Origin: Halovivax limisalsi
GTDB lineage: Archaea > Halobacteriota > Halobacteria > Halobacteriales > Natrialbaceae
NCBI RefSeq assembly: GCF_023093535.1
Contig: NZ_CP095757.1
Coordinates: 1,550,001-1,614,000, forward strand
DNA length: 64,000 bases
Reading direction: 5' to 3'
Shown piece after piece: positions 14,135 through 44,067 of the stretch. The position numbers were made by a program, and so were the translations under genes. How positions within the stretch are numbered: position 1 is the stretch's first letter; every line of letters begins with the position of its first letter. The notes under the pieces were generated by a model. The model ran no database searches. It worked only from the letters and a program-made list of their open reading frames with translations, and had not been told where the DNA came from.

Positions 14135-14980
14135 TCACAGGACGTGGCGGCACTTCCCCAGGCGCGGAAACCAGTGTGTCTCGCCGGCGTCGTCGTCTCG
14201 GACGATCGGGTAGAGCCCGTCGACGTCGGACAGCAACGGCGACTGGAAGTCCCGCGCCGGGCGATCGTTGATCTTCGTGCCTCGAGCTAGCTGCGAGAAC
14301 GCGGGTAGGACGAGGACGCCCGGTTCGTCGGCCTCACCCGCGGCGTCCTCGTGCCCGGAACGACCCGGCGGTCCGTAGAGGAAGCACGGTCGTTTGCGCC
14401 CGTCGGTGGCCAGCGCCGGGTGGTCGTGCCCGAAGATGCGGGTGACCGGTTCGTCGCGATGGCTCGCCGGATCGTCGGTATCGGGAGTCGGTTCGTCCGT
14501 CTCGGACGTCGAATCGTCCCTCGGGGACGCCGCTTCGTTCGTCTCGGACGTCGAGTCGTCGATCGAATCCGGGTGCTCGTGGCCGTGACTGACGATCGTA
14601 CGACCGTCGGCGAGTCGATAGGCGTCGGCCGTCTCGCCCGCGAAGACGTCTTCGAGCATCCGATCGTGGTTTCCTGGCGTGCAGACGAGCGTCGCGCCCG
14701 AGTCGTCGACCCGAGTTTCGATCCGTTCGACCGTCTCGCGGACGCCGCGGGGCACCCACGAGAACGAGTGCAGGAGGTCGCCCGCGACGACGACCGTTTC
14801 CGGCTCGAACCGATCGAGGAGCCGATCCAGGCGCGAGACGACGCGCTCGGCCGCGTCGATGGGGGCGTCGACGGCCGAAGCCTCGCCGCGGCCGAGGTGG
14901 ATGTCCGCGAGGACGACCGTCTCGGCGGGGCGGACGTAGACCGCTCGCTCCGCGAATGAGAAGGGGGCGTCGGGGGCCAT
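14135..14980 (-). CDS. Calcineurin-like metallophosphoesterase (SbcD/ligase-associated type)
   Basis: 281 residues with all metallophosphoesterase motifs: ADIHLG (D26, H28), AGDLLHS (D67), GNHD (103-106), HGHEH (132-136) and GHDH (184-187). The family needs two metal ions and cleaves phosphoesters. Between the fourth and fifth motifs lies an insertion (about 137-178) made of repeated Asp-Ser-Thr-Ser-Glu-Thr blocks, probably a flexible loop formed by DNA repeat expansion. A GTG directly precedes the ATG at 14980; ATG is used. The gene starts 9 bases after the archaeosortase stop and is probably co-transcribed, though no functional link is known. Confidence 0.85.
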   Translation of the reverse strand: MAPDAPFSFAERAVYVRPAETVVLADIHLGRGEASAVDAPIDAAERVVSRLDRLLDRFEPETVVVAGDLLHSFSWVPRGVRETVERIETRVDDSGATLVCTPGNHDRMLEDVFAGETADAYRLADGRTIVSHGHEHPDSIDDSTSETNEAASPRDDSTSETDEPTPDTDDPASHRDEPVTRIFGHDHPALATDGRKRPCFLYGPPGRSGHEDAAGEADEPGVLVLPAFSQLARGTKINDRPARDFQSPLLSDVDGLYPIVRDDDAGETHWFPRLGKCRHVL

Positions 14981-32199: not shown

Positions 32200-32445
32200 A
32201 TGGCGACGTCGGAATCTCCGGAGGAGACGGCCGTGAGTGAACGGGGAATGGTGACGATTCCGGCCGAGATCCGTCGCGATCTCGATATCGGGCCGGGTGA
32301 TAAGCTCCGGTGGGACATCGATTCGTCCGGTGAGTTAACCGTCGAGGTTATTCGACAGCGAGAAGGGGTTTTCGATGACTTCGAACCGGCTGACGTCGGT
32401 GAAACGGACGCCGTTTCCGTCGAGGACGAATTCGGGGCGAATTGA
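32200..32445 (+). CDS. vapB: AbrB/SpoVT-type antitoxin (VapB)
   Basis: 81 residues. Residues about 10-50 have the swapped-hairpin AbrB pattern (VSERGMVTIPAEIRRDLDIG, then GDKLRWDIDSSGELTVEVI). The remaining acidic tail (DDFEPADVGETDAVSVEDEF) is the part expected to wrap and block the toxin. The stop codon overlaps the ATG of the PIN-domain gene (TGATG), a strict coupling typical of toxin-antitoxin pairs. It is likely a DNA-binding autorepressor; a candidate operator lies upstream. Confidence 0.87.
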   Translation: MATSESPEETAVSERGMVTIPAEIRRDLDIGPGDKLRWDIDSSGELTVEVIRQREGVFDDFEPADVGETDAVSVEDEFGAN

Positions 32446-32873
32446 TGGCCGTCGCGATGCTCGATACGAACGTCCTGTTTGCCAGCGCTAGCGCGCGGGA
32501 TGCGTACCACGACCGTGCCCGGGAACTCGTTCGTGGCATCGACTACGGCGAACTGCCGGATGCAATCGTGACGGACTACGTGGTCGCCGAAGCGCTGAAC
32601 CTCGTGAGAGAGAAACTCGGTCCCGAGGTGGCGAACGGAGTACTCGAACGACTCATCGAGGGGACCCATTTCGAAGTCGTTCACACGCCACAGACGGATT
32701 TCATCCGCGCACAATCGCTATTCCGAGAGCATCCGCAACTCTCGTTCGTCGATGCGACGCTCGCCGCATACATGCACCGCGAGGACGTCCAGTACCTGTA
32801 TTCCTTCGACGACGATTTCGATGTCGTCGACGAACTCGTCCGACTTGACACGGCGACCAATCCGCATCGTTGA
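32445..32873 (+). CDS. vapC: PIN-domain ribonuclease toxin (VapC)
   Basis: 142 residues of the PIN fold. The acidic active-site residues are visible: D7 in LDTNVLF, a Glu in VVAEALN near 48, Asp in SFVDATLAAY near 102 and the Asp cluster FDDDFD near 122. VapC toxins cleave tRNA or rRNA when free of VapB. ATG 32445 overlaps the antitoxin stop; an in-frame TTG one codon earlier is rejected. The base composition is lower in GC than that of the flanking genes, in line with mobile toxin-antitoxin modules. Confidence 0.88.
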   Translation: MAVAMLDTNVLFASASARDAYHDRARELVRGIDYGELPDAIVTDYVVAEALNLVREKLGPEVANGVLERLIEGTHFEVVHTPQTDFIRAQSLFREHPQLSFVDATLAAYMHREDVQYLYSFDDDFDVVDELVRLDTATNPHR

Positions 32874-36665: not shown

Positions 36666-37118
36666 TTATGGATACGCCAGACCGTACTCGTTTTCAATAG
36701 CGAAGTCAGCGAGCGTGATCAGTTCGTCGACCCGTTTCTCTTCGCGCCATCCTTCGGCCTGCTCGCGCGCTTGCTCGCAGGCCCGAACGAATTTGGCAAG
36801 CCCAACCGGGTTCGTGACCACTTCGGACAGGTCGTCGATCCCGTATTGATTCCAGATGTCAGTGACAGATGGGTCCATCTTCTCCCCTATAGAGGTGTGT
36901 AGTTTGTAATATATTCGGAACGTGCCGTCCTCCTCGAATCGATCGACTGTTCGTCGATATTCTCGAAGATCGTCGATGGTTTCTGCCTTCGGATGCGACG
37001 CGGAAATCTCTCCCTCGTAGTATTCACGCATAGCCTCTAGATAGTACATGTAATATGCGTCGATCGTCTCTCGGGTTTGCTCGTCAGACGGGACGAGTAA
37101 TGTAATTGTGCTTCCCAT
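36666..37118 (-). CDS. Unknown protein, candidate immunity protein of the adjacent polymorphic toxin
   Basis: 150 residues, soluble, mainly helical and acidic (pattern YYMYYLEAMREYYEGEI at about 22-38; C-terminal AEGWREEKRVDELITLADF). No known domain is recognised. The ATG is three bases after the stop of the 1697-residue secreted protein, so the two are surely co-transcribed and probably translationally coupled. A small unknown gene directly downstream of a large secreted protein with a C-terminal nuclease-like domain is the usual position of an immunity gene. Codon use is much less GC-rich than in the surroundings. The immunity role is inference from position only. Confidence 0.7.
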   Translation of the reverse strand: MGSTITLLVPSDEQTRETIDAYYMYYLEAMREYYEGEISASHPKAETIDDLREYRRTVDRFEEDGTFRIYYKLHTSIGEKMDPSVTDIWNQYGIDDLSEVVTNPVGLAKFVRACEQAREQAEGWREEKRVDELITLADFAIENEYGLAYP

Positions 37119-37121
37119 ATA

Positions 37122-40100
37122 TTACAGGAGTTCTCTCACAGACTCGTGCAGCGCTTTGAGTTCGGCTGGCGTCCTCTCGAACGTTTCGACTTGCTTCACT
37201 GGGTCAGACGTATCGTCCATTCCTTTTGCCACGATGGCGATCTGGCCCTCGTTGTTCCCACTACTCACCACGAAATCGCTTTTAGAGAGGTCATCGAGAT
37301 TCACCCCTTTTTGCCCGTCTACTAGAGATATACTACTGCTGCTCTCGATGTCCGCTAACGATGTCCGGATCTGTTCGAGTTTCGAAGTCGCCGGATCTTG
37401 CCTCCCCACACCCTCTTCCGCGATCCCCACAACTTGATTTTCGCTGTTTACAATCAAGTGATCAAATTCTACGCTTCCTCCATCGACTTTGATTGTAACA
37501 CCCTTCCCAACTGATTCGGGCGTCGGATAGATCACGTCACCGCTTTTCGCAAATTTCTGGACGATGCCCTTTTCGACCGCCAGAATTTCGCCGATATCGC
37601 CAACTGACGAACTAGGTACTTTGTTCGACTCATCCATGACAAGCGCCACCCCCTGCTGGTGGCGGCTAATATCGATTACCATGTCCGCAAGCGTGCTGAT
37701 GCGGCTGGATTCCAGTCCTCGATCTAACAGTTTTCGGGTGGACGTAACCGACTCCGTTTCGAGGACGTACCGGAGTGTATCAGCATCGAGTTCATCAGCC
37801 ACCCGTGCGAGCTCATCGGCTTTCCCTGCATTGGCGAGGTCGGCGGCTTTGTCGAGCAAGTCGTCACCTTTGTCTCCGTCGCTACCGCCAGCAGCGACGA
37901 TCCTCCGTATAGTCTGGCTATCGTAGGCGTTCGTCAGGGTTTCCGCGTCGCTTCGCTTAGCTAGTTGGGCAACGAGGTCGGCCCGCAGGGCTGCGGGGAC
38001 CGTGTCCAGTCCTTCGAGCCCCGATACGACCTGCTTCGCGCTCGCCACCTCATCCACCTCTTTGGCGACCTGTTCGGCGACGGCCTCGGACAGCCCCGCG
38101 TTCTGGAGCGTTCCCTTGCGGACGCCGGTAACGAAGTTCGAGCCCTTGCCGGGCGAGACCTTGCTGGCGACAGTCTGGGCGAACTCGGGCGTGAAGTCGC
38201 CGAACTGGCGACCGGTCAGGTAGCCGAGACGCTGCATCTTCGACGCCGGGACCTTCTTGAGGACCTCGGCGGTCTTCGTGGCCGCCCTGACGAGGTCGCC
38301 CGCCTCGTCGGCCGCGATGGCCGAGCCAGTCAATGCGGCGCCGACGCCGGTGATCGACGTCGCCGCACCGACGACCTTCGCGCCGGTGGTGACGATTTCC
38401 CAGGCGGCGAAGCCGCAGTCGAGCGCGTTCTCCCAGAGGGCGTCGTTGATCGCCAGACACTCACGGACTTCGAGGGCAATCTCGACGCCGTCCTCGACGA
38501 CCGGGACGTACCCCGTCGCGATGACGATGTACGGGAAGAACCAGCCGAACATGTAGGCGACCGTGTCCGAGCCCGCGCGGTCGTTGACGTAGCCCCAGTC
38601 GCCGTAGACCATCCCGTCGAGGAACTCGTCGGTCGGGAGGCCGTCTTCGAGGTGGAACGACTGCTCCGTGATGGTCGGCTTCGTCGGATCGCCGGGATAC
38701 GGATCGTCGACGTCTGCGATCCCGTCGGCGTCGGTGTCGACGATCAAGGGGTTCGTTCGAAGGGCCTGTTCTTCCCCGTCGTCGATGCCGTCCGAATCGG
38801 TGTCCGCCCTGTCCGGATTGGAACTCAATCGAACGGTGACGACCGACTCGCCGTCGACTACCTCCTCGGCGAAGTGCGCTTCGTCGCCGTCGGGAATCCC
38901 GTCACCGTCCGTATCCGGATCGGTCGAGGAGGTGGTGAAGGTCTTGGCGGGTCCGTTCTGGGCGACCCACTCGCGGTCTTCGAGGCGGTCGGGGATCCCG
39001 TCGCCGTCCGCGTCGATCTGACTCGTTCGCGGGATCACCTGGGTGCGAAGGTTCACGCCCTCGGCGTCGATCGTGACGTTCGCCGGGCCGTGTGCGAGCG
39101 AAGAGACGTTGAAGACTTCTTCGACGGTGCCGACGGTGCCGATGGTGAGCGCCTCGTCGACGACGGTCCCGTTCGTCCCTTCGATCGTGAAATTGGCAGC
39201 CGGTTCGACGTCCGTCTGCTCGGTCTGGTACCGGACGGCGATCTCATTGACGTCCTCGCCGAGGTCGTACGTGAAGTTCGCAGTGCCGCTGTCGCCGCCG
39301 GGATCCGTCGATTCGTTCTCCTCGACCGCTTCCGGGAAGTGAATCGTCACCGGCTCGCCCATCGCCAGGTCGTGGTGTTCGGGCGCGGTCGCCTGTCCCG
39401 TCAGGAACTCCCAGCGAGTGAGTTGGCCCGGTGTCAGCGGGTCCTGCGAGGCCGCATCGTTGAAGTACGGCGTCACGGTGAGGGACCGATTCGTGAGCCC
39501 ACCGCGGAACACGCCACCGTCGGTGTTGTCGTAGTTCCACGTCCACTCTGGCCGCGTTGGCGGCCCGCGGTTGAAATCGCCGGGGTCGTCTTCGACGACC
39601 CAGTCACCCTGACTCAGGGGTAATCCGTCGAACGCCAGATCGACCGCGCCACCGGATCCATCGCGCGGTTTGTCGTGCAGGCTGACGAGGCTGAGCCCTT
39701 CCGGACCGGACCAGACGAACAGGCGGCTGGCATCGCTCTTCGCGATCGGGAGCGGTGAGTTGATCTCCGCATCCTCGTAGTCGTAGAATTCCTCGATGTC
39801 CTGGCCGTTGGTCAACGGGACGACCTGAAAGCTCTCGTTGCCCTGTTCGACGGTGATCGTTCGCGCGTCGGGCTCTCCGCCGACGAGCAGGGTACTCTCG
39901 TTCTCGACGGTGCAAGCGTCCTGACACGTAAAGTTCGATTGGTTTTCGAAGGCGATCGGGTCATCCTCCGGACCGCTGGTAGGGAACGTCGTTGCGTCGA
40001 CCCACTCCTCGCTGTCGAGCACCGTGAAGTACGAGAAGTGTTCGGTTTCGGCTACCGCACTCCCGTTCTCGATCGTCGTTTCGAGCGGCCGCCACGTGTC

Positions 40101-42215
40101 GGTCGCCGACCCGTTCCACGTGTAGACGGCGAGATCGTCGTACTCCGTCGCGGAGACCGTCTCATCGATCGGGATTTCGACCGACGCGGACTCGAAGGCG
40201 GTCGCGTTCGTCAGTCGCACCGTCGGGCCGGCGCCGGCATCGGTGGCGTTGAAGTACGCCGGTTTGGGATCGATCGACACGCCCTCGGCGACATTGCCCT
40301 GTCCGCGGACCGCGACGCTCACGCCGGTGGTCTCGTTCGAGGCGACGGTATCGAACGTCTCGTTCCCGTCCAGGATTCCGTCGTCGTCGGTGTCCGGATC
40401 CGTGGGGTCCGTGGGGAGCGGCTGTTCGCCGCCGTCCGTGATCCCGTCGTCGTCGGTGTCGGCCACGGTGGGATCGGTCCCCAGGTCGAGTTCGTCCGCG
40501 TCGCTGACGCCGTCGTCGTCGGTGTCGGGATCGTCGAAGGCCGTTCCGAGTTCTCGTTCCTCTGCCGTCGTGAGCCCGTCGCCGTCGTGATCCTCCTCGG
40601 CGTCGGAGACGCCGTCTCCGTCCGTATCCGCCACGAGCGGGTCGAAGCGATCCTGCTCGACCCGATCCGAATCGTGGCGGACCTCGAAGCGATCGGACAG
40701 GCCGTCCCCGTCGGTGTCGGCGACGAAGGGATCGGTTCCGGCCGCGAATTCGCGGTGCGTGGTCAACCCGTCGCCGTCCGGATCCTCGCGGCCGTCGATG
40801 ACCCCGTTGTCCGCTTCGTCCGCGTCGGTCGACGGGTAGTCGCTGTCGTTGCTGGCGGGGTCGGTCCCGGTGACCTCCCGCTCGTAGAAATCGGGCAGGC
40901 CGTCGTTGTCACCGTCGTTGTCGAGGTAGGCGGGGACGCCGTCTCCGTCCGGATCCTCGCGTCCTTCCTCGCGGTCGGGCGCGCCGTCGCCATCGGCGTC
41001 GGTGTCGACCCAGTTCGGGCGCCCGTCGAAGTCCGCGTCGAGCGCCGCCGGTTTCCCGTCCTCGAACTCCACGGCCGTCGGGATGCCGTCGCCGTCGTCG
41101 TCGGTGTCACGCACGTTCGGCACCCAATCCTCGTCGGTATCGGAGAAACTCTCGGACGGTCTGCGGTCCGGCACCGAATCGTCGTCCGAATCGAGATCGA
41201 GCGCGTCGATCTCGCCGTCGGCGTCGGTGTCGATCGGGAACCCGAACACGGTTTCGGCGCCGTCGCCGAGCCCGTCGCCGTCGGTGTCGTCGTCCTCGGG
41301 ATCGGTTCCGATCAGGAGCTCCCAGGCGTCGACGAGCCCGTCGCCGTCGGTGTCGATGCCGGCCGGTTCGACATCGAGCGAGTCCAGCCGATCCCGAATC
41401 TGCCGGGCGTCGCGCCAGGCGCTCGCGTACGATCCGATGGCATCGGCGCGATCGCGAACGGCCGCTTTGAACGCACGATGGCTCGTCGCGTCTATTTCCT
41501 CGGCGGCCTCGCGCTGGAGCCCCAGCCCGTTCTGGTACTCGGTTCGGGCGCGCTCGAGACTGGCCGTCAGGTCCTCGTACTGCCCGTCGGTTAGGTTCGC
41601 CCGATATCGTTGAATCGAGTGCTCGACCCGCGCGAGCTCCCACTGAGCCGTCACCCGCCCGGCTTCGGTCGTGTGCCGCGTCGCGTTCCGGACGGCCGCC
41701 AGGTCCTCTGACGGGGATGCGTGTTTCCCCTTGAATTTGACCGCGGTAGCCAGCGAGCGCGTGGCGGCCGCCGTCATCTGGATCGTGCCCCGATTGCCGG
41801 GGTCGACGGCCGATTCGTACTTTTTGACCACCCGGTTCAGCGGCGGGGCGACGGCCGATCCGGGTCCGCTGTCACTCGACTCCAGTTGATCCGTGCTCGC
41901 CTGCGCTTGGACGAGCAGGTGGCGCGGTGACGGTCCGGATTCGATGACTGGGTTTTGGGTTGTGCGTTCTTGGTCCGCTGCTACGCCAGTAACACCCTGA
42001 TTCGTGGTCGCCATCTCGTCCGGGAGAAATCTGTCGCTTGCGCCGCCATCCACTCGCTCTGGCGTTGCCGGCGCGGCGAGCACCGGCGTGACGATGATCG
42101 AACTGACGAGCAATACGGCCGTCAGGATGACCGTGAGTCTGCTGGGCCGGTCTCCGCCCGTTCGAAACTGATCCGTAATCCGGGAGAAAATTTTGTAGAA
42201 ATAGTTTGATATCAT
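37122..42215 (-). CDS. Giant secreted protein with thrombospondin type 3 repeats and C-terminal toxin-like domain (polymorphic toxin candidate)
   Basis: 1697 residues. A signal peptide (about residues 25-50, hydrophobic core ending VLAAPA) is followed by a helical segment (to ~285), a long array of D-x-D-x-D-G calcium-binding TSP3 repeats (~287-620), beta-rich domains with many N-x-S/T sequons (~625-1060), a second TSP3 group (~1062-1178) and a hydrophobic helical stretch with Gly/Ala-rich GAATSITGVGAALTGS (~1205-1310). The C-terminal domain (~1530-1697) has SVGDIGEILAVEKG, VEFDHLIV and VVGIAEEG, resembling a PD-(D/E)XK nuclease core with the usual Lys changed. ATG 42215 is chosen from the TATA at 42238-42246; the longer frame starts at 42317. 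Confidence 0.85.
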   Translation of the reverse strand: MISNYFYKIFSRITDQFRTGGDRPSRLTVILTAVLLVSSIIVTPVLAAPATPERVDGGASDRFLPDEMATTNQGVTGVAADQERTTQNPVIESGPSPRHLLVQAQASTDQLESSDSGPGSAVAPPLNRVVKKYESAVDPGNRGTIQMTAAATRSLATAVKFKGKHASPSEDLAAVRNATRHTTEAGRVTAQWELARVEHSIQRYRANLTDGQYEDLTASLERARTEYQNGLGLQREAAEEIDATSHRAFKAAVRDRADAIGSYASAWRDARQIRDRLDSLDVEPAGIDTDGDGLVDAWELLIGTDPEDDDTDGDGLGDGAETVFGFPIDTDADGEIDALDLDSDDDSVPDRRPSESFSDTDEDWVPNVRDTDDDGDGIPTAVEFEDGKPAALDADFDGRPNWVDTDADGDGAPDREEGREDPDGDGVPAYLDNDGDNDGLPDFYEREVTGTDPASNDSDYPSTDADEADNGVIDGREDPDGDGLTTHREFAAGTDPFVADTDGDGLSDRFEVRHDSDRVEQDRFDPLVADTDGDGVSDAEEDHDGDGLTTAEERELGTAFDDPDTDDDGVSDADELDLGTDPTVADTDDDGITDGGEQPLPTDPTDPDTDDDGILDGNETFDTVASNETTGVSVAVRGQGNVAEGVSIDPKPAYFNATDAGAGPTVRLTNATAFESASVEIPIDETVSATEYDDLAVYTWNGSATDTWRPLETTIENGSAVAETEHFSYFTVLDSEEWVDATTFPTSGPEDDPIAFENQSNFTCQDACTVENESTLLVGGEPDARTITVEQGNESFQVVPLTNGQDIEEFYDYEDAEINSPLPIAKSDASRLFVWSGPEGLSLVSLHDKPRDGSGGAVDLAFDGLPLSQGDWVVEDDPGDFNRGPPTRPEWTWNYDNTDGGVFRGGLTNRSLTVTPYFNDAASQDPLTPGQLTRWEFLTGQATAPEHHDLAMGEPVTIHFPEAVEENESTDPGGDSGTANFTYDLGEDVNEIAVRYQTEQTDVEPAANFTIEGTNGTVVDEALTIGTVGTVEEVFNVSSLAHGPANVTIDAEGVNLRTQVIPRTSQIDADGDGIPDRLEDREWVAQNGPAKTFTTSSTDPDTDGDGIPDGDEAHFAEEVVDGESVVTVRLSSNPDRADTDSDGIDDGEEQALRTNPLIVDTDADGIADVDDPYPGDPTKPTITEQSFHLEDGLPTDEFLDGMVYGDWGYVNDRAGSDTVAYMFGWFFPYIVIATGYVPVVEDGVEIALEVRECLAINDALWENALDCGFAAWEIVTTGAKVVGAATSITGVGAALTGSAIAADEAGDLVRAATKTAEVLKKVPASKMQRLGYLTGRQFGDFTPEFAQTVASKVSPGKGSNFVTGVRKGTLQNAGLSEAVAEQVAKEVDEVASAKQVVSGLEGLDTVPAALRADLVAQLAKRSDAETLTNAYDSQTIRRIVAAGGSDGDKGDDLLDKAADLANAGKADELARVADELDADTLRYVLETESVTSTRKLLDRGLESSRISTLADMVIDISRHQQGVALVMDESNKVPSSSVGDIGEILAVEKGIVQKFAKSGDVIYPTPESVGKGVTIKVDGGSVEFDHLIVNSENQVVGIAEEGVGRQDPATSKLEQIRTSLADIESSSSISLVDGQKGVNLDDLSKSDFVVSSGNNEGQIAIVAKGMDDTSDPVKQVETFERTPAELKALHESVRELL

Positions 42216-42237
42216 TACAGATAGAAATAGCAAAAAC

Positions 42238-42246
42238 AATAAAAAG
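42238..42246 (-). promoter_or_regulatory. TATA box of the giant secreted protein gene
   Basis: CTTTTTATT on the minus strand, about 27 bases before ATG 42215, within an AT-rich stretch (42210-42340) unlike the surrounding chromosome. It sets the start codon. Confidence 0.6.
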
Positions 42247-42455
42247 TGTTTCCATCTATAATTGATGGGGCGCACAAATCCGGCCGGGCACGATCGACGA
42301 GCCGTTTCGGTCGGCAACTGAACTAATTAACAAAATCAGACTGGGTCACCAGTCCAAACAGTATAACGGTTCCGATGAGCGAGATGGTGTTCGGTTAGCG
42401 AATGTCGGGATCTGAAACCACGCAAGATGGAGTGAACGGGACGCCTGCCATCGCT

Positions 42456-43503: not shown

Positions 43504-43761
43504 ATGTCGAGCACGACCAGGTCAAACAACAACGAGGGCGTCGAATTCGTCCACGAGGACAACGGCCAAATTACGGCCGTCGACCTCGAAACCGGCGTCG
43601 CCTCCTACGGCGACACGAAATCCGAGGCTCTCACGATGCTCGCCGAAGCGCTTGAGCTTCACGAGGGCGGTGGCGAGCCCGTCACCGACGCCGATCTCGA
43701 AGCGTGGGGCCTCGATCCTGACGAAGTAGACGACAAACCACTTCCCGACTTCATGTCCTAA
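43504..43761 (+). CDS. hicB: HicB-family antitoxin
   Basis: 85 residues. The HicB fold is visible as VEFVHEDNGQITAVDLETGV, SYGDTKSEALTMLAEALELH and an acidic tail (DADLEAWGLDPDEV). HicB binds and blocks HicA and usually represses the operon. It precedes the HicA gene by 54 bases, an arrangement of antitoxin first that is common in archaea. A TATA-like GCTTATC lies about 25-30 bases before the ATG. The pair lies in the accessory region next to the tRNA-Ala gene. Confidence 0.87.
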   Translation: MSSTTRSNNNEGVEFVHEDNGQITAVDLETGVASYGDTKSEALTMLAEALELHEGGGEPVTDADLEAWGLDPDEVDDKPLPDFMS

Positions 43762-43779
43762 CCGGTCAGACCGATGAGA

Positions 43780-43787
43780 TTTTTATG
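43780..43787 (+). promoter_or_regulatory. Possible internal TATA box for hicA
   Basis: TTTTTATG in the hicB-hicA spacer, 29-36 bases before the hicA ATG at 43816. It would allow the toxin to be transcribed apart from the antitoxin. Confidence 0.45.
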
Positions 43788-43815
43788 TATTCTCTCCCTG
43801 TCTACCAGTAACTAA

Positions 43816-44067
43816 ATGCCCAAAACGTCGTTCTCTGGCCGCGAGATTGCGAAAGTCCTCCAGAACCACGGATTTCGACGCGCCGGGCGAAAGGGAAGCC
43901 ACCTCAAACTGCGCTACGAGCACCCAGTAACCAGAGAAGTACGGATAGTTACCGTTCCAATGAAGTCCGAAGACGAGATCCCGACCGGGACGCTCCAGTC
44001 GATCGCAAACCAATGTGGCGCAGAGGATTTCCACGCCTGGTGCGAGTGGATCGACGAGAACCGATAG
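43816..44067 (+). CDS. hicA: HicA-family mRNA interferase toxin
   Basis: 83 residues with the double-stranded-RNA-binding-like HicA fold: FSGREIAKVLQNHGFRRAGR, GSHLKLRY with the catalytic His, and VTVPMKSEDEIPTGTLQSIA. HicA cleaves mRNA and halts translation unless bound by HicB. Length and motifs are complete, so the toxin appears active. ATG 43816 is used. An apparent TATA box in the spacer suggests it can be expressed independently of hicB. Confidence 0.9.
   Translation: MPKTSFSGREIAKVLQNHGFRRAGRKGSHLKLRYEHPVTREVRIVTVPMKSEDEIPTGTLQSIANQCGAEDFHAWCEWIDENR

Follow-up and report, generated by a model that had tools for sequence, protein, structure and literature searches.

The window analysed here is a 64,000-nucleotide stretch of the haloarchaeon Halovivax limisalsi (contig NZ_CP095757.1, positions 1,550,001 to 1,614,000), whose genome is a single contig of 3.89 Mb. 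On the reverse strand of the window, a large gene that encodes a predicted secreted protein with TSP3 calcium-binding repeats is directly followed by a small gene. Comparison of related loci shows that the C-terminal domain of the large protein and the small gene are paired, exchanged between carriers and mobile. On this basis, the pair probably constitutes a polymorphic toxin and its immunity protein, in which a secreted TSP3 carrier presents a horizontally mobile C-terminal domain and the downstream gene is dedicated to that domain.

The large gene (37122–42215, reverse strand) is defined by its open frame and by matches to Pfam TSP3_bac. The frame spans 37122–42317 and encodes 1731 residues if read from the first TTG codon (42317). 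The ATG codon at 42215, which is preceded by an AT-rich stretch, gives exactly 1697 residues with a signal-peptide-like start, as a previous sequence-only reading had proposed; the outer end that it gave to the gene (42340) lies slightly too far. Residue numbers below follow the 1731-residue (TTG) reading and are converted to the 1697-residue reading by subtracting 34. The small gene (36666–37118, reverse strand) encodes a 150-residue protein and starts three bases downstream of the large gene in the same frame (TAA-TAT-ATG), in agreement with that reading.

The C-terminal domain and the small gene travel together

A search with the last 510 residues of the large protein covered 392 genomes of the order, and domain profiles were used in further draws. 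Eight other haloarchaeal genomes contain relatives of the C-terminal domain, which sit on three types of carrier: TSP3 proteins, eCIS_core/DUF4157 proteins and short secreted proteins. In blastp, residues 1535–1730 resemble the ends of the proteins at loci L029, L054, L056, L057 and L033. The carriers are eCIS_core/DUF4157 proteins at L029 (Haloferax elongans, contig NZ_AOLK01000015; domain at about residues 327–515) and at L054 (PF13699; E 2e-30 and 5e-28, respectively), TSP3 proteins at L056, L057 and L033, and proteins of another secreted type at L067 and L059. The L033 domain matches the window domain with E 2e-8 in blastp and is recovered with E 1.1e-58 by a profile that contains its own row. 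Searches for eCIS_core gave 15 matches in the L029 genome, 16 in the L054 genome and none in the remaining five relatives examined that bear the domain. In the window genome, one eCIS_core gene lies outside the toxin locus, and the Pfam search finds no eCIS_core (PF13699) in the window protein itself.

The C-terminal domain had been described as variable and exchangeable, a description that the relatives bear out. Its conservation does not follow that of the remaining protein: unrelated carriers bear the domain, and carriers related to the window protein have other C-termini. A pre-toxin module of the window protein (residues 1235–1370; 38208–38615, reverse strand), with hydrophobic and Ala/Gly-rich helices, is shared with the proteins at L030 and L031 (33–35% identity; blastp E 7e-9 and 3e-14), whose C-termini and downstream genes are unrelated to those of the window, and residues 1535–1730 recur on other carriers.

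A homologue of the small gene is the next gene in all seven intact, directly readable loci, at a distance of 0–44 bp (window, 3; L029, 1; L054, 0; L056, 4; L057, 2; L059, 44; L067, 42 bp). Across the 392 genomes, the domain occurs in seven and the small gene (three-row profile) in six, of which five are shared (hypergeometric p 1.7e-9, an indicative value because some genomes supplied profile rows and the genomes are related). The small gene is thus rare and is not widespread without the large one. The distances of toxin and small protein correlate weakly (r=0.52, permutation p=0.022, seven pairs). In profile–profile comparison of subfamilies, the small proteins match over their full length (Prob 96%) and the domains match with Prob 96% and 94%. 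With carriers exchanged, the small gene adjacent and the two co-occurring, the earlier proposal of a polymorphic toxin system is largely supported.

The small gene also occurs apart from the domain or in several copies: it is repeated in tandem at L054, stands as an orphan at L055 and L070 and belongs to mixed arrays at L033 and L058; the copies that lack the domain fit the pattern of polyimmunity loci. The only relative of the domain without the small gene survives in genome G254 as a truncated copy close to a TnpB-like gene. In the plasmid collection, tblastn with the small protein returned a single record, from Haloprofundus salinisoli and at the same site as L033, and two domain queries gave no match. 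A contig scan with the small-protein alignment returned H. elongans alone, and a scan of the virus collection with the small-protein profile found no relative.

Several neighbouring arrangements were noted at these loci. At L059:4715–6747, carrier and toxin domain are split between overlapping frames of 378 and 315 residues, perhaps as a frameshift or a standalone cassette. The H. salinisoli replicon (L033:4765–6198) carries three small genes after a 999-residue TSP3 toxin-like protein; small genes 1 and 2 are alike and may form a second immunity family. Immediately after the H. elongans pair (L029:7713–8517) comes a second cassette, in which an eCIS_core remnant that carries a different C-terminal domain precedes a gene for a 105-residue protein. 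Unrelated small genes lie directly 3' of the two carriers in which the pre-toxin module of the window protein recurs (L030:5068–5658 and L031:7423–7956) and are candidates for two further haloarchaeal immunity families, whose carriers would bear different C-terminal toxin candidates. In the congener G002, whose genome has 18 eCIS_core matches, a copy of the small gene broken by one TAG codon is located just upstream of an eCIS_core effector cluster (L060:5857–6069). Another congener encodes a 1724-residue TSP3/PKD protein (L037:3716–8890) that ends in a different domain with the motif YVDVK. It is not followed directly by a gene on its own strand and may represent a toxin that has no immunity gene beside it.

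Base composition of the locus

The GC content at third codon positions (GC3) changes inside the large gene. A maximum-likelihood change point at residue 1448 separates a carrier part with a GC3 of 0.83 from a terminal part (37125–37976, reverse strand) with a GC3 of 0.59 (log-likelihood ratio 36.9). The sequence-only reading had assigned a different base composition to the small gene; its GC3 is indeed low (0.60), but the drop begins within the large gene and not at the gene border. Because GC3 falls inside the large gene and the small gene shares the low value, the domain and the small gene appear to have been acquired as one cassette. The last 150 codons are likewise lower in GC3 than the carrier in all seven domain-bearing genes analysed. 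In two congeners in which both neighbours were found, the syntenic interval measures 1.1 and 2.2 kb, compared with 8 kb in the window; the locus is absent there and is therefore lineage-specific.

The putative immunity protein

The small protein is a putative immunity protein, as its homologues adjoin the domain in the seven readable loci. Its AlphaFold model, built from 13 sequences, is confident (predicted local distance difference test score (pLDDT) 91.7, predicted template modelling score 0.87) and consists mainly of α-helices with short terminal strands. A Foldseek search of the PDB with this model gave nothing significant, and the viral library returned one unnamed phage protein (E 5.5e-3). 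In VIA-align, rows 2 and 3 are DMP12 and YfbM, which align with the whole model at Z-scores in the chance range (5.2 and 4.9, respectively). Neither the small protein of the window nor 12 relatives have a significant Pfam match, and NCBIfam, checked for the window's own copy, likewise gives none. A weak match to the small protein in genome G094 was lost once a larger profile was used. The isoelectric point of 4.4 is of an acidity that is ordinary among haloarchaea.

Modules of the carrier

The N-terminal region contains a signal-peptide-like segment that ends in VLA-AP (42075–42215, reverse strand) and has its hydropathy maximum at residues 57–75, consistent with the signal peptide described before. 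Two groups of TSP3 repeats, also described before, are recovered by a motif scan, which gives 27 overlapping DxDxD-type matches at residues 322–660 (group 1; 40338–41354, reverse strand) and 1102–1206 (group 2; 38700–39014, reverse strand). Pfam TSP3_bac (PF18884) matches the protein in seven stretches (E=3e-15), including group 1. The signal-peptide-like N-terminus and the TSP3 repeats make the large protein a multidomain carrier of the secreted or displayed kind found in polymorphic toxins, with export predicted.

Residues 404–837 resemble the TSP3 proteins at L056 and L057 in blastp. Residues 815–1065 are similar to further secreted proteins of the genus and represent a carrier module, and the middle part of the protein has no Pfam match. 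The hydrophobic Ala/Gly helices of the sequence-only reading correspond to a single strong hydrophobic segment (residues 1253–1271) followed by Ala/Gly-rich helices.

The C-terminal domain as a putative nuclease

The C-terminal toxin domain (residues 1535–1731; 37125–37715, reverse strand) was analysed by alignments, profile searches and VIA-align and is most likely a PD-(D/E)XK nuclease that would cut DNA or RNA. The eight aligned domains share a GxxxE motif, in which the glycine differs in one row, an ExD motif and an (E/Q)xK motif, whose lysine is missing from the window row, and most rows have a glutamine. The corresponding putative active-site residues of the window protein, all within 37125–37715, are E1577, E1617-x-D1619, E1634-E1635-G1636 and Q1649. 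NERD, a PD-(D/E)XK family, weakly matches three of the seven domain members (best E 0.008). The VIA-align rows for the domain model are mostly restriction enzymes and resolvases (DrdV, BpuSI, Bax1, Hjc and NotI). A nuclease is the best guess because motifs, NERD matches and VIA-align rows agree, each line being weak alone.

No Pfam or NCBIfam family matches the window's C-terminal domain, and no Pfam toxin family reaches its curated cut-off on the domain members. The Pfam Tox-REase-7 profile (PF15649) has no match at the domain in eight genomes at E-values up to 10. Sequence searches of the PDB yielded nothing beyond designed helical repeats and further matches attributable to chance, and Foldseek with the domain model found nothing significant in the PDB.

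Proposed mechanism and alternative explanations

In the proposed mechanism, the carrier would be exported by the Sec route and then displayed on the cell or released, and the toxin would reach a neighbour by contact or diffusion. The pre-toxin region may help the C-terminal domain across the membrane of the neighbouring cell, where a PD-(D/E)XK-type site in the domain would cleave nucleic acid. The 150-residue protein would bind and block the domain in the cytoplasm, so that the producer and its kin survive. The action between haloarchaeal cells is our inference. We lean slightly towards a broader proposal, in which a single cassette is swapped between two unrelated routes, TSP3 surface proteins exported by Sec and contractile injection, and the TSP3 proteins form a contact-dependent killing system with a pre-toxin translocation module of their own. 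If the cassette does serve both delivery routes, the TSP3 proteins would be a genuine archaeal system of contact-dependent killing.

Several points weigh against a functional toxin–immunity pair of this kind. To our knowledge, there is no established way for a TSP3 protein to bring a toxin into an archaeal cell. At L033, the small gene is located three genes downstream of the domain in an apparent immunity array. The AlphaFold model of the domain is poor (pLDDT 52), and the Z-scores of its VIA-align rows (4.4, 3.4, 2.7, 2.3 and 2.2 in the order given above) fall in the range of chance arrangements. Finally, the window protein has a glycine (Gly1636; GGT, 37410–37412) at the position of the putative catalytic lysine, which is present in all seven aligned relatives, and this substitution raises doubt about activity: the window copy may be catalytically weak or dead.

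Loss of the (D/E)xK lysine that the other seven sequences conserve is an argument for an alternative in which the toxin of the pair is already inactive in the window genome and the small gene is a leftover or a shield against the toxins of relatives. Decay does occur in the domain family, because the G254 relative is truncated beside a TnpB-like gene and has lost the small gene. In the window, however, the 1697-residue frame, the other active-site positions and the small gene are all intact, and some PD-(D/E)XK nucleases have altered or migrated active-site residues, so we regard an inactive toxin as possible but unlikely. A domain that is toxic without being a nuclease, with a superficial likeness to PD-(D/E)XK motifs, would accord with the low confidence of its model and with the lack of a match to Tox-REase-7 or, at curated cut-offs, to any other Pfam toxin family. 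It appears improbable in view of three independent hints that concur, namely the motifs in eight divergent sequences, NERD in three of them and the structural rows.

Alternatively, the large protein could be a surface adhesin stabilised by calcium, with neutral drift accounting for its variable end and an unrelated small gene next to it; TSP3 repeats often occur in secreted proteins with an adhesive or structural role. This explanation is very hard to reconcile with the joint movement of domain and small gene between unrelated carriers, their adjacency in seven of seven loci and their co-occurrence (p about 2e-9), and we give it almost no weight. Adjacency and co-occurrence also led to the rejection of the small gene as a chance neighbour. 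A type II toxin–antitoxin module was rejected because the domain forms the terminus of carriers that are secreted or injected. A polymorphic toxin with a dedicated immunity gene accordingly remains the preferred reading of the pair.

Toxin–antitoxin-like genes nearby

Two small genes at window positions 43504–44067 resemble a HicB–HicA toxin–antitoxin pair, and a comparable pair is found near the L056 toxin locus (14312–14878). At window positions 32200–32873, an AbrB/MazE-like gene is followed by a PIN-like gene, probably as a putative toxin–antitoxin pair.

Comparison with known systems

The arrangement of the window pair parallels that of polymorphic toxins of the Tox-REase class, which likewise combine a long secreted carrier, an exchangeable REase-like C-terminus, a 3' immunity gene and polyimmunity loci (Zhang et al. 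2012, PMC3482391). The Tox-REase-7 motifs GxxxE, IxD, ExK and Q (PMC3482391) are close to the GxxxE, ExD, (E/Q)xK and Q of the window family. The window pair differs from this class in that its carrier has TSP3 repeats in place of RHS or filamentous-haemagglutinin repeats, its immunity family is not in Pfam and its domain does not match the Tox-REase-7 profile.

Polymorphic toxins of the classical kind have been described as rare among archaea, and the haloarchaeal ones were described as delivered only by Photorhabdus virulence cassettes/extracellular contractile injection systems (PMC3482391). According to PMC8416519, a later study (Makarova et al. 2019 mBio, as cited there) extended the predictions of archaeal polymorphic toxins, nucleases are the commonest archaeal toxins (citing the same study), and haloarchaeal secreted multidomain proteins with PKD, CARDB or Ig domains are linked to toxin and immunity genes. 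To judge from this description, the window pair resembles the systems of Makarova et al. 2019 in combining a large secreted protein, a toxin and an immunity gene. As of 2021, predicted archaeal polymorphic toxins outside contractile injection lacked experimental work (PMC8416519). Judged against Pfam and NCBIfam, the toxin–immunity family described here appears to be new, and it is of a kind already known, since haloarchaeal polymorphic toxins have been predicted before.

The folds of the Neisseria DNA-mimic protein DMP12 and of E. coli YfbM, with which the whole small-protein model aligns at low Z-scores and without detected sequence similarity, provide no more than a lead for the immunity protein. 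Antagonism between archaea is poorly understood, and the locus offers a defined toxin domain together with an immunity family absent from Pfam.

DUF4157 effectors of Halogeometricum borinquense are toxic in Haloferax volcanii and are neutralised by the downstream gene (PMC11566945). The L029 and L054 domains sit on the same type of carrier as these effectors of type VI secretion systems/contractile injection systems (PMC11566945), with the immunity gene adjoining. In contrast, the window protein combines a signal-peptide-like N-terminus with TSP3 repeats and lacks eCIS_core, which implies another delivery route. The main interest of the locus is that one cassette would serve two delivery routes in archaea. 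The same cassette on a type of contractile-injection effector already shown to kill in Haloferax volcanii provides a natural control, which makes toxin delivery by TSP3 surface proteins directly testable.
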